This document shows, one piece after another, positions 2,112-16,626 of a stretch of DNA of 64,000 nt. This DNA is from Opitutales bacterium (GTDB lineage Bacteria > Verrucomicrobiota > Verrucomicrobiia > Opitutales > UBA953), in assembly GCA_024697185.1 (NCBI GenBank), contig JAILGB010000029.1, forward strand, positions 36,259-100,258, in the 5' to 3' direction. The position numbers were made by a program, and so were the translations under genes. The notes under the pieces are model-generated. The model saw nothing but the letters and a program-made list of their open reading frames with translations. It did no database searches and had not been told where the DNA came from. The first letter of the stretch is position 1; the number at the start of each line of letters is the position of its first letter.

Positions 2112-3369
2112 TGCGTTTTTTAACGGTTTGAGCGAAATCTGGGCGCACAAGATGCGTTCCCTCCTCTCAATGTCCGGTATTATTTTGGGCGTCGCGGCGC
2201 TGGTGGCGATGGTCTCGGTGGTGCAGGGGATGGTCGGACAGTTTCGCGGTTTTATCGAGATGCAGGGCGGGATCGAAAAAATCACAATCAGCACGGAATC
2301 TTTGCCGAAGGAGCAGGAGCATTTGCAGGATTCGGCTCCGGGTTTGCGGGTGGTGGACATTGAGGCGATTCGCAAATTGGCGCCGCTCGCATCGCACATT
2401 TCGCCGGAGATTTCCGTCAGGTGGACAAGCTTTTCCCGCAACGGCAAAGAGTTTAATGCCCGTGTGACGGGAACGATGTCGGATTGGCTCGTCGTCAACA
2501 AACGGACGGTGCAAAAAGGCAGATTTCTTTCTGACGAAGACGAAATATCGCGCGCGAAAGTTTGCGTTTTGGGCACTCTGATCGTCGAGGAGCTTTTCGG
2601 CGAAAACGAAGATCCCATCGGCGAAGCGATCAAAATCGGCGGCGAATGGTACACGGTTGTCGGCGTGCTCAACCAGTATTCGACGGGCACTAACGCAAAC
2701 GCTAAAAATTCCCGTCGCGGTCCGGGCGGTTTTATGAATCGCGGCTGTTATATTCCTTTGCATACGGCGATCAGCAACTATCAGTCCAACGACAAACTGT
2801 CGGCGCTTTATGTCCGCGTGAGCAGCGTCAACGAACTGGATGAGGCTGTCAGTCAGCTGGACGCGGCGCTCTTGCAGTCGCACAACGGATTTCAGGATTT
2901 TTCCGTCTCGACCAACGAGGAAATGCTTGAGGAGTTTAAAAAGACGGAGCAGTCGTTTATGATTTCTTTGGGCGGCGTCGCGCTGATCTCCCTTTTTATC
3001 GGCGGGATCGGGATTATGAATGTGATGTTGGCGGCGATCAACGAGCGTATTCGGGAAATCGGCGTCCGCAAGGCTGTCGGTGCGACTTCCGGCGATATTT
3101 TTATGCAATTTTTGATTGAAACCGTTTTGATCAGCACACTTGGCGGTCTCATTGGTCTGGCGCTTTCTGGCGGGATTATTTCCCTGATCATGCTTGTGAT
3201 GTCTTCGGGCGCCGGCATGACCTCCAATATCGCGTCTTCGATGACGATCGAACCGTCCGTGATGCTTGTCGGTTTTGCTTTTTCGGTGACAATCGGGATC
3301 GTTTCCGGCATTTTTCCGGCATTGCGCGCCGCCCGGCTTGATCCTATCGAAGCACTCAGATACGAATAA
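2104..3369 (+). CDS. MacB-like ABC transporter permease (FtsX domain)
   Basis: Inner-membrane partner of the preceding ATPase. The 421-residue product has one N-terminal membrane segment (about 20-45, SGIILGVAALVAM), a large periplasmic MacB_PCD-type domain (about 45-270), then three membrane segments of the FtsX domain. The coupling sequence GVRKAVGAT and the end DPIEALRYE are typical of MacB-type permeases. The family acts by mechanotransmission on periplasmic substrates, lipoproteins or drugs. It shares a TAATG stop/start overlap with truA, so truA is probably in the same transcript. Confidence 0.92.
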   Translation: MYSAFFNGLSEIWAHKMRSLLSMSGIILGVAALVAMVSVVQGMVGQFRGFIEMQGGIEKITISTESLPKEQEHLQDSAPGLRVVDIEAIRKLAPLASHISPEISVRWTSFSRNGKEFNARVTGTMSDWLVVNKRTVQKGRFLSDEDEISRAKVCVLGTLIVEELFGENEDPIGEAIKIGGEWYTVVGVLNQYSTGTNANAKNSRRGPGGFMNRGCYIPLHTAISNYQSNDKLSALYVRVSSVNELDEAVSQLDAALLQSHNGFQDFSVSTNEEMLEEFKKTEQSFMISLGGVALISLFIGGIGIMNVMLAAINERIREIGVRKAVGATSGDIFMQFLIETVLISTLGGLIGLALSGGIISLIMLVMSSGAGMTSNIASSMTIEPSVMLVGFAFSVTIGIVSGIFPALRAARLDPIEALRYE

Positions 3370-4142
3370 TGAAAGGCAAGTATGAAAATCTCATTCCCGC
3401 GGGAATGACGCGTTATCGTTGCATCGTCGAATACGACGGAAGCGATTTTCACGGCTGGCAAAGTCAGGTTTGCGGGAACGCCGTCCAAGATCATCTCGAG
3501 CGCCGGCTCAAAGAGATTACGCGCGAAACAGTCCGGATTCACGGGAGCGGGCGCACCGACAGCGGCGTTCACGCCAAAGGGCAATGTTTTCATTTTGACT
3601 GCCGCTGGCATTATCCGCCGGAAACGCTTTTGCGCGCGCTCAATTCCGGCATTCCCGCGGGCATCGTCGTGCGCAAGGCCGCATTTGCAAAAGACGGTTT
3701 TCACGCGCGTTTTTCGGCGCGCGGCAAACGCTATTGCTACAAAATCGTCGAAGGGTATCCGACACCGTTTGAACAGCGTTTTTGCTACGGGATCGCGGGA
3801 ACGCTCGATGTCGAAGCCATGAGCCGTGCGGCAAAAATGCTTTTGGGCAAACATGATTTTTCCGCCTTCGGTGCGACGCACGCCTCCGTGGAGCGCGAAA
3901 ATCCGATTAAGGACTTGCGGCGCTTGGATGTCGTCCGGCGCGGCAAAAAAATCACCGTCACGACAGAGGCGAGCGGTTATCTCTATAAGATGGTGCGCCG
4001 GCTTGTCGGCGGACTGATCAAGGTCGGGCAGGGCAAAATGACGCCGGAAGCGCTGCTCGCCTACCGCGAAGCCCGCGTTTGCGACGCCGTCGTCCCGACA
4101 GCTCCCGCCAGAGGATTGACGATGGAAAAAGTTTTTTATTGA
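3369..4142 (+). CDS. truA: tRNA pseudouridine(38-40) synthase TruA
   Basis: Isomerises uridines 38-40 in the tRNA anticodon arm. The 257-residue product shows the TruA core YDGSDFHGWQSQ and GRTDSGVHA, whose Asp64 is the catalytic residue, plus the C-terminal block YLYKMVRRLVGGL. The ATG at 3369 overlaps the permease stop (TAATG). A second in-frame ATG at 3405, directly before RYRCIVEYDG, matches the usual family start better and cannot be excluded. Confidence 0.95.
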   Translation: MKGKYENLIPAGMTRYRCIVEYDGSDFHGWQSQVCGNAVQDHLERRLKEITRETVRIHGSGRTDSGVHAKGQCFHFDCRWHYPPETLLRALNSGIPAGIVVRKAAFAKDGFHARFSARGKRYCYKIVEGYPTPFEQRFCYGIAGTLDVEAMSRAAKMLLGKHDFSAFGATHASVERENPIKDLRRLDVVRRGKKITVTTEASGYLYKMVRRLVGGLIKVGQGKMTPEALLAYREARVCDAVVPTAPARGLTMEKVFY

Positions 4143-4197
4143 TCGTTCCCGCAGAAAAATCGTTCCCGAAAAAAATTAAAATTCAAACAGTTCCCCG

Positions 4198-6072
4198 ATG
4201 CCTCTTTTGTCCGTTCGCAATCTTTCTTTACGTTTTAGCGGCCCCGCGCTCTTTGACGATGTCACATTCCAAGTCGAATCCGGCGAGAGGCTTTGTTTGA
4301 TCGGCCGTAACGGCGTCGGGAAAAGTTCCCTGCTGAAAATTATTGTCGGGCAGATGAACGCCGACAGCGGTGAAGTCGCGATCGCCAAAGGTTCCCGCGC
4401 CGCCTATCTTTCGCAAGAAGTGCCGTCCGCTCTCGCGGGAACGGTGCGTGACGTTGTTCTCGCGGGCTTGGGCGAGGTCGGCGAAAAACTCCGCGCCTAT
4501 GAAACTCACGATCTCGAAAAATACACCGAGTCGGACCTCAACGCGATTTTTAACTGGCTTGAGGAAAATCACGCCTGGCATCTGTCGAGCGAAGTCGATG
4601 CGATGATTTCAAAAATCGGCGGGAACGCCCAACTGCCGTTTTCGTCGCTTTCGGCGGGGATGAAGCGTCGAGTCTTGCTCGCGCGGGAACTCGTCGCCAA
4701 GCCGGACATTCTCGTTCTCGACGAGCCTACCAACCATTTGGACATCGACTCGATCGAATGGTTGGAAAACTTTTTGCTCGCCTGGCGCGGGGCGATTTTG
4801 TTCGTAACGCACGATCGCCGTTTTTTGCGTCATGTCGCCACGCGCATTCTCGATCTCGAACGCGGGATCGTCACTTCGTGGGACTGCGACTACGACACTT
4901 ACCTGCAGCGTCGCGAAGCGCTCGACGAATCCATTGCCGCCAACGAAGCGGAGTTTGACAAACTCCTCGCGAGAGAGGAAGCCTGGCTGCGCCAAGGCGT
5001 CAAGGCGCGCCGTTGCCGCAACGAAGGCAGAGTGCGCGAATTGATGCGCCTGCGCGAACTGCGCGCCCGCCGTCGCGAGACGGTCGGCAATGTCCAGGCG
5101 ACCATCAGCGAAGGGACACAATCGGGCGCCAAAGTCCTGAGCGCCGAAAAAATCAGCCATCGCTGGAATGGCGTTCCCGTAATCGAGGATTTTTCGACCG
5201 TCATCATGCGTGGCGATCGCGTCGGCATCATCGGCAAAAACGGCATCGGCAAAACGACCTTGCTCAAAATCCTCCTCGGGCAACTCACCCCGGACAGCGG
5301 CAAGGTCACGGCGGGAACAAATCTGCAAATCGCCTACTTCGACCAGTTGCGTTCCCAACTCAAGGAAGACAAAACATTGATCGAAAATCTCGCGGGAGAC
5401 GGCGGGGATACTGTTGTTGTGGGACATCAGAGCCGCCATGTCATCAGCTATCTCGGCGATTTTCTTTTTAGCCCGGACCGCGCCCGCAGCAAAGTCTCAA
5501 TGCTCAGCGGCGGCGAGAGAAATCGTTTGATGCTCGCAAAAATTTTTCTAAAAACCGCCAACGTTCTCGTGCTCGACGAACCGACAAACGATTTGGATCT
5601 CGAGACGCTAGACCTGCTCGAAGAACTGATCTCAAAGTTCGCGGGAACGGTTTTGCTTGTTTCCCACGATCGCGAATTTTTGGACAATGTGACGAGCTCC
5701 TACATCGTTTTTGAAGGGAACGGGAAACTGCGCGAATTTGTCGGGGATTATGAAAGCTGGAAAAAAGAATACGGCGTTCCCGTAGAAAATCCCGTTCCCG
5801 CCAAAACGCAAAAAGCCGTTCCCGCAGCCAAAAAAGCCGTTCCCGCGGACAAGAAAAAACTCTCCTACAAGGAAACGCACGAATTGGCGGCTTTGCCTGA
5901 TAAAATCGATGCGCTCGAACGCGAACAAAAAACCTTGACGGCGCAAATCGCCGATCCGGAATTTTATCGCGATCCCGCAGCCGTCAAAGCGACAAACGAA
6001 CGTTTGGCACAAATCGAAGAAGATTTGCTCACCCTGATGGACCGTTGGGAAGAACTTGAAAGCAGAAAATAA
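4198..6072 (+). CDS. uup: ABC-F family ATPase, Uup-like
   Basis: Soluble twin-ATPase protein of the ABC-F family, whose members act on ribosomes or on branched DNA. The 624 residues hold two ABC domains: Walker A GRNGVGKSS (36-44) with a SLSAGMKRR signature, and GKNGIGKTT with LSGGERNR. DEPTNHLD and DEPTNDLD mark the Walker B motifs. The last 80 or so residues form the coiled-coil DNA-binding tail (PDKIDALEREQKTL..., EELESRK) that separates Uup from EttA. Between them a linker near residues 525-552 repeats Val-Pro-Ala; each repeat is encoded by a copy of the iterated word GTTCCCGC. Confidence 0.92.
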   Translation: MPLLSVRNLSLRFSGPALFDDVTFQVESGERLCLIGRNGVGKSSLLKIIVGQMNADSGEVAIAKGSRAAYLSQEVPSALAGTVRDVVLAGLGEVGEKLRAYETHDLEKYTESDLNAIFNWLEENHAWHLSSEVDAMISKIGGNAQLPFSSLSAGMKRRVLLARELVAKPDILVLDEPTNHLDIDSIEWLENFLLAWRGAILFVTHDRRFLRHVATRILDLERGIVTSWDCDYDTYLQRREALDESIAANEAEFDKLLAREEAWLRQGVKARRCRNEGRVRELMRLRELRARRRETVGNVQATISEGTQSGAKVLSAEKISHRWNGVPVIEDFSTVIMRGDRVGIIGKNGIGKTTLLKILLGQLTPDSGKVTAGTNLQIAYFDQLRSQLKEDKTLIENLAGDGGDTVVVGHQSRHVISYLGDFLFSPDRARSKVSMLSGGERNRLMLAKIFLKTANVLVLDEPTNDLDLETLDLLEELISKFAGTVLLVSHDREFLDNVTSSYIVFEGNGKLREFVGDYESWKKEYGVPVENPVPAKTQKAVPAAKKAVPADKKKLSYKETHELAALPDKIDALEREQKTLTAQIADPEFYRDPAAVKATNERLAQIEEDLLTLMDRWEELESRK

Positions 6073-15353: not shown

Positions 15354-15391
15354 AAAAATCTTGCGGGAACGCGCGTTCCCGCAAGATTTTT
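15354..15391 (+). terminator. Rho-independent terminator built from two facing copies of the iterated word
   Basis: Perfect 19-bp palindrome without spacer, centred at 15372/15373, consisting of A5-TCTT-GCGGGAACGC followed by its complement and a T run. It ends the FKBP transcript. The core of each arm is the GCGGGAACG word. Confidence 0.85.
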
Positions 15392-15411: not shown

Positions 15412-15439
15412 TTGAAAAGTCTCGCGCCCGTGCTATAAT
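15412..15439 (+). promoter_or_regulatory. Promoter of the candidate small RNA
   Basis: TTGAAA (15412-15417), 16 bp, TATAAT (15434-15439). Transcription should begin near 15446. Confidence 0.6.
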
Positions 15440-15445
15440 GAAAGT

Positions 15446-15535
15446 TGCAGGGAAACCTGCTATATATCTTAAAAGTACGGCCTAGCTGACTTCCCCCCGA
15501 TGGTTCCTATCCTTTTCCCGTCGGGGGGTTTGCTT
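15446..15535 (+). ncRNA. Candidate small RNA of unknown family, about 90 nt
   Basis: Bounded by a good promoter and a strong terminator, with no gene between. The predicted transcript has a 5-bp hairpin with a GAAA tetraloop (GCAGG-GAAA-CCTGC, 15447-15460), a central single-stranded part and a terminator stem CCCCCCGA/TCGGGGGG (15493-15500 with 15521-15528) followed by TTTG. It lacks the SRP RNA core and does not resemble 6S or tmRNA. A 15-codon frame (ATG at 15438, MKVAGKPAIYLKSTA) overlaps the -10 box and is probably not translated from this promoter, though a leader peptide from an upstream start is possible. Confidence 0.55.
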
Positions 15536-15579
15536 TGTCGCGGGAACGCCGGATCTGTGGGGGATTGTTCAAAAATTTC

Positions 15580-15712
15580 TTGCATTTTTGCATCAAATAA
15601 TGTTTAATAAGAGTCCATTCTCAAATAAAAAACTTGGATTAACGGCAGTGTAGTTCTCCCACCCGATCATCTGAACAGTAGCTGCAGAGCGTCCAAACAA
15701 CACAAAAATCAA
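15580..15712 (+). promoter_or_regulatory. rplM-rpsI promoter and 5' leader
   Basis: TTGCAT (15580-15585), 17 bp, TTTAAT (15603-15608), start near 15615. This leaves a leader of about 98 nt before rplM, unusually long for this window, with possible pairing between GCAGTGTAG-type and CAGTAGCTGCAG segments. L13 operons in other bacteria are controlled through leader structures, so it may be an autoregulatory site. No Shine-Dalgarno precedes the ATG. Confidence 0.5.
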
Positions 15713-16169: not shown

Positions 16170-16565
16170 ATGAGCACTCCAGAAGTTTTCACAGCAGTCG
16201 GTCGTCGCAAAACGTCCAGCGCCCGTGTGCGTCTTTCGTATGGCAAAGGCAAAATGACCGTTAACGGCAAACCTTTGAACGAATACTGCTTCACCGAAGC
16301 CCTCGCAAAAACCGCGACTGCTCCCATCGCAGTCGCGGAGCTCGAAGGATCGCTTGACATCACCGTTCTCGTTAACGGCGGCGGCGTTTCCAGCCAGGCG
16401 GGAGCAATTTCGCTCGGCATCGCACGCGCTATCGAAAAATACAATTCTGAAAAGCGCGCTGTGCTTAAGAAAGCCGGTCTCCTCACTCGCGACGGTCGCG
16501 ATAAGGAACGTAAGAAAAGCGGTCAGCCCGGTGCCCGCAAGCACTTCCAGTTCTCGAAACGTTAA
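16170..16565 (+). CDS. rpsI: Small ribosomal subunit protein S9 (uS9)
   Basis: Component of the 30S subunit whose C-terminal tail reaches the decoding site tRNA. The 131-residue product shows AVGRRKTSSARVRL at the N-terminus, GGGVSSQAGAISLGIARA in the middle and the basic GARKHFQFSKR tail ending in Arg. Second gene of the rplM-rpsI operon. No Shine-Dalgarno is visible before the ATG. Confidence 0.98.
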   Translation: MSTPEVFTAVGRRKTSSARVRLSYGKGKMTVNGKPLNEYCFTEALAKTATAPIAVAELEGSLDITVLVNGGGVSSQAGAISLGIARAIEKYNSEKRAVLKKAGLLTRDGRDKERKKSGQPGARKHFQFSKR

Positions 16566-16593
16566 TCCAAGTTTTGGGAGAACTACCGAAAAG

Positions 16594-16626
16594 CCGTTTC
16601 CGCAAGTCGCGGGAACGGTTTTTTTA
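16594..16626 (+). terminator. Terminator after rplM-rpsI
   Basis: CCGTTTCCGC (16594-16603), 5-nt loop, GCGGGAACGG (16609-16618), then seven Ts. The right arm is a perfect iterated word; the left arm is the same word with one base change that still allows a G-U pair. Confidence 0.85.

Follow-up and report, generated by a model that had tools for sequence, protein, structure and literature searches.

Does the intergenic stretch upstream of rplM encode a small RNA of its own, or does it belong to rplM as a cis-acting leader? The first-pass annotation read the stretch as an unassigned small RNA of about 90 nt and raised the possibility of a leader-peptide attenuator. Both readings were assessed in the window, i.e., the whole stretch of 64,000 nucleotides analysed (36259-100258 of contig 5), from a 1.59-Mb genome in 32 contigs that is 97% complete. 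The relatives available for comparison are Verrucomicrobiota MAGs, and the best named matches of the L13 protein are in Opitutales/Puniceicoccales and Opitutia MAGs.

A putative isolated transcription unit between the FKBP gene and rplM

The locus contains the following features:

5' of the unit: FKBP-type isomerase gene (FKBP_C domain match)
15354-15391, + strand: terminator of the FKBP gene, formed by two copies of the genus-specific GCGGGAACG repeat in inverted orientation (-26 kcal/mol, z = -6.6)
15412-15439, + strand: sigma-70-type promoter, TTGAAA-N16-TATAAT with a TG extension (extended -10), matching 11 of 12 consensus positions
15438-15485, + strand: 15-codon frame MKVAGKPAIYLKSTA, whose ATG (15438-15440) overlaps the -10 box (15434-15439) by two bases
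15446-15535, + strand: predicted transcript (putative sRNA) of 85-90 nt, from promoter and terminator positions and folding
15447-15460, + strand: predicted 5' hairpin GCAGG-GAAA-CCUGC with a GNRA loop, not significant alone and not found conserved
15461-15492, + strand: AU-rich linker, largely single-stranded by folding, including a weak second hairpin (15473-15492)
15493-15528, + strand: intrinsic terminator with an 11-bp G+C-rich stem, a pyrimidine-rich loop of 14 nt and the tail TTTGCTTT (-22.1 kcal/mol)
15580-15608, + strand: promoter of rplM-rpsI, TTGCAT-N17-TTTAAT, whose hexamers and spacing are the same in the nearest genome
15713-16150, + strand: rplM, ribosomal protein L13
16170-16565: rpsI (S9), 3' of rplM and followed by a tRNA

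The putative sRNA unit is isolated by the FKBP terminator on its 5' side and by the rplM promoter on its 3' side. What the first-pass annotation had described at this locus was confirmed: the promoter, the strong terminator, the 15-codon frame overlapping the stretch and the separate rplM promoter are all present, and no open reading frame of at least 80 amino acids runs across 15412-15535, in agreement with the claim that the stretch holds no gene.

Promoter and terminator are 54 nt apart. Sites matching at least 11 of 12 consensus positions occur three times in the 64-kb window, counting both strands and including the promoter of the putative sRNA; about 0.1 such sites per strand are expected in first-order Markov sequences, and 0.0 when the TG is added. 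The other two lie 9-10 nt 5' of ATGs at 1353 and 29538, which by inspection open an ABC transporter-like and an epimerase-like gene. As these equally strong promoters stand directly 5' of gene starts, near-consensus promoters in this genome look genuine. With the usual spacing of 6-8 nt between the -10 box and the transcription start, the predicted start falls at ~15445-15447. RNA polymerase would thus begin near 15446 and stop at the terminator at ~15528-15536, both positions being predicted from the sequence.

A promoter and a terminator of its own, enclosing no coding sequence, give the unit the layout of a stand-alone intergenic sRNA. We consider it somewhat probable that the locus is transcribed on its own into a species-specific sRNA of ~85-90 nt.

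Fold of the predicted RNA

In the predicted RNA a short GNRA hairpin stands at the 5' end, the AU-rich middle is mostly unpaired and the hairpin of the terminator closes the molecule; a single fold dominates, accounting for 64% of the ensemble. The folding energy of the whole 90 nt (-36.7, against -23.7 +/- 2.7 for shuffles) gives z = -4.75, which is contributed by the terminator. For the part preceding the terminator (15446-15490) z is -1.8, and 13 of 200 shuffles fold equally well. Since this part folds no better than shuffles, the GNRA-capped hairpin described earlier is indeed present but could be due to chance.

Search for relatives and known families

Only chance matches to the predicted RNA were obtained from Rfam, at the gathering score and at E values up to 10, so that it belongs to none of the Rfam families. 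A query of the whole 311 bp mainly met copies of the dispersed GCGGGAACG repeat; with a shorter query, 87 bp of the RNA, blastn against 95 genomes of the same order, seven of them from the same genus, matched only the locus itself (E 3.8e-40). The best other match (E 0.006) lies within a sequence that reads as methyltransferase-like, and two weak matches in genome G068 appear to be coding and unrelated. No match was found by blastn with the region or the RNA alone against phages and plasmids, nor with exact patterns in viral contigs.

A covariance model built from the single sequence and its stems likewise recovered only the locus itself in 57 genomes (E 3e-26). Other matches had E values of 0.2-3.3 per genome, and those inspected were attributed to chance: one in the same genus (L182) is antisense within a lipoprotein-like frame, and others match the terminator alone (L184 just a terminator stem) or unrelated sequence. 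Neither the sequence nor the stems were found in the seven same-genus genomes or the others searched, leaving no relative in which compensatory changes could be compared; stem conservation, proposed as a check on the original claim, was not borne out. A small RNA gene of ~90 nt is still the best reading of the paired promoter and terminator, as a putative one. The missing conservation lowers this claim but does not exclude it, since many genuine sRNAs are species-specific.

The setting itself is variable. None of the relatives inspected has the same surroundings 5' of rplM or, among same-genus genomes, 3' of the FKBP gene; the presence of other genes 5' of rplM indicates that the neighbourhood has been rearranged, and the putative unit is absent from this position in 29 other loci. 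In the nearest genome L13 is 83% identical; as even this relative is distant, a short-lived species-specific RNA may still be possible.

Relation to rplM

In the cis-acting reading, the unit would be an attenuation leader of rplM-rpsI, in which a leader peptide or a ribosomal protein controls the terminator at 15493-15528. The unit does lie on the same strand 5' of rplM and ends in a terminator, and in other bacteria leaders of rplM serve autoregulation, as does the L13 leader of Firmicutes. However, the ATG of the proposed peptide sits in the -10 box, so that a transcript from the promoter at 15412-15439 starts 3' of it and MKVAGKPAIYLKSTA cannot be its leader peptide. Moreover, the upstream fold was unchanged when the terminator was forbidden in folding, which means that no antiterminator competes with it. 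The gene has its own promoter downstream of the terminator, no such unit precedes rplM in the 29 other loci, and pairing of the predicted RNA with the rplM leader was no better than that of shuffles. We consider cis attenuation improbable, and the leader-peptide attenuator suggested initially is not upheld.

The two known kinds of leader differ accordingly. The ribosomal protein L13 leader (Rfam RF00555) shares strand and position 5' of rplM, whereas here no Rfam match to it was found and the terminator lies ~185 nt 5' of rplM, before a separate promoter that places the unit outside the rplM 5' untranslated region. Amino-acid leader-peptide attenuators likewise carry a terminator after a short frame; in contrast, the start codon here is 5' of the transcript start, and there is neither a regulatory codon run nor an antiterminator.

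A promoter resembling TTGCAT-N17-TTTAAT precedes rplM in genome G006, and the comparison that recovers the rplM promoter in the nearest genome shows no trace of the putative sRNA unit. Separately, the rplM leader (15629-15662) and the stretch after rpsI (16559-16594) have two exact inverted-repeat segments in common, AAAACTTGGATTA and GTAGTTCTCCCA, in swapped order; these were not found in 29 related loci.

Possible mode of action

If active, the putative sRNA most likely would not regulate rplM in cis. We infer that it would most likely act in trans as an Hfq-independent antisense RNA, with either its unpaired middle or the pyrimidine-rich loop of the terminator contacting the targets. No match to Hfq (PF17209) was found in the eight genomes of the genus, whereas Hfq-bearing control genomes did match, and the RNA accordingly does not classify as an Hfq-dependent sRNA. 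Of the 32 ATG-started genes in the window, three have a Shine-Dalgarno-like motif before the start, and such motifs are thus rarer there than in non-coding stretches (19%). Together, the failure to find Hfq and the rarity of Shine-Dalgarno motifs argue against the usual modes, whether pairing aided by Hfq or pairing at ribosome-binding sites. Anti-Shine-Dalgarno pairing by the pyrimidine-rich loop was considered unlikely, such motifs being rare at starts, and no gene of the window stood out notably in target prediction.

As an observation on the genome, the rare Shine-Dalgarno motifs and the two promoters 9-10 nt from an ATG suggest Shine-Dalgarno-independent initiation, perhaps on leaderless mRNAs.

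Other readings of the unit

The main rival to a functional sRNA is a short unit that is genuinely transcribed but has no function, its promoter having arisen by chance or been left over from a lost gene. The lack of conservation in any relative searched, the weak internal structure and the differing genes 5' of rplM, which point to a rearranged neighbourhood, all fit this explanation; a promoter strength found just three times in the window and the close pairing of this promoter with a strong terminator speak against it. We regard it as possible, if unlikely, and give the same weight to its further component, that the terminator shields the rplM promoter from read-through. Far less probable is a leaderless micro-gene that opens with the TTG at 15445 and encodes a peptide of 14 residues (MQGNLLYILKVRPS). 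The scarcity of Shine-Dalgarno-like motifs (three of 32 ATG starts) and the two strong promoters within 9-10 nt of an ATG, which suggest that very short leaders may be common, would allow for it, yet the frame is very short, opens with TTG and has no DNA-level homologue by blastn in the 95 genomes. A tracrRNA or other CRISPR-linked RNA resembles the unit in general form alone (short stems, AAGU-like linker, terminator), and with no Cas9 match in the 97% complete genome this reading was rejected as practically negligible.

Returning to the species-specific sRNA, it is doubtful, on present evidence, that it is the first representative of a new RNA family confined to its lineage in Opitutales and made up of Hfq-independent regulatory RNAs acting on mRNAs that lack a Shine-Dalgarno sequence.

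A dispersed uptake-like repeat

The locus lies among copies of a dense repeat. In the window the octamer CGGGAACG has 200 copies, against ~2 expected for a random octamer, and the 9-mer GCGGGAACG occurs 124 times, with 84% of these copies in predicted coding frames; positions beside the putative sRNA include 15363, 15375 and 15540. Over the whole 1.59-Mb genome there are 5,322 copies of CGGGAACG (one per 299 bp; 105 for the reversed control) and 3,488 of GCGGGAACG (one per 456 bp; 48 for the reversed control), and variants with one internal base changed hardly occur. In five further genomes of the genus the copy number of GCGGGAACG is 3,060-4,396, and in two more it is 743 and 336, such that the repeat is high in six of the eight, lower but raised in two, and near background elsewhere in the order. 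In several same-genus genomes the FKBP gene is followed by comparable terminators made of inverted repeat pairs.

A ComEC-type competence protein, of a widespread family, is encoded in all eight genomes of the genus. The pattern of CGGGAACG and GCGGGAACG resembles a system of DNA uptake sequences, here in Verrucomicrobiota; we infer the uptake function by analogy, and a dispersed motif may have other roles. A literature search on uptake sequences in Verrucomicrobia returned nothing on the GCGGGAACG repeat.

Comparison with known systems

The putative sRNA resembles generic intergenic sRNAs of bacteria in its layout, its size of ~90 nt and its position between separately terminated and promoted neighbours. 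It differs from them in having no sequence or structure relative among the genomes searched, and also in that its genus yielded no match to Hfq, with which sRNAs of Proteobacteria usually act. The finding is of an ordinary kind, which by itself tests no open question. If the unit is transcribed, it would add one more species-specific sRNA in Verrucomicrobiota, a phylum in which, to our knowledge, few have been described, and would raise the question how an sRNA finds its targets without detectable Hfq or common use of Shine-Dalgarno sequences.

The repeat matters more than the putative sRNA. In Neisseria, pairs of the DNA uptake sequence (DUS) form terminators, as the inverted GCGGGAACG pair does here behind the FKBP gene. 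The repeat is also as dense as the densest dialect reported for Neisseriaceae, with 5,918 copies in 2.4 Mb (PMC3630211), and looks like an uptake-sequence system outside Neisseriaceae and Pasteurellaceae.
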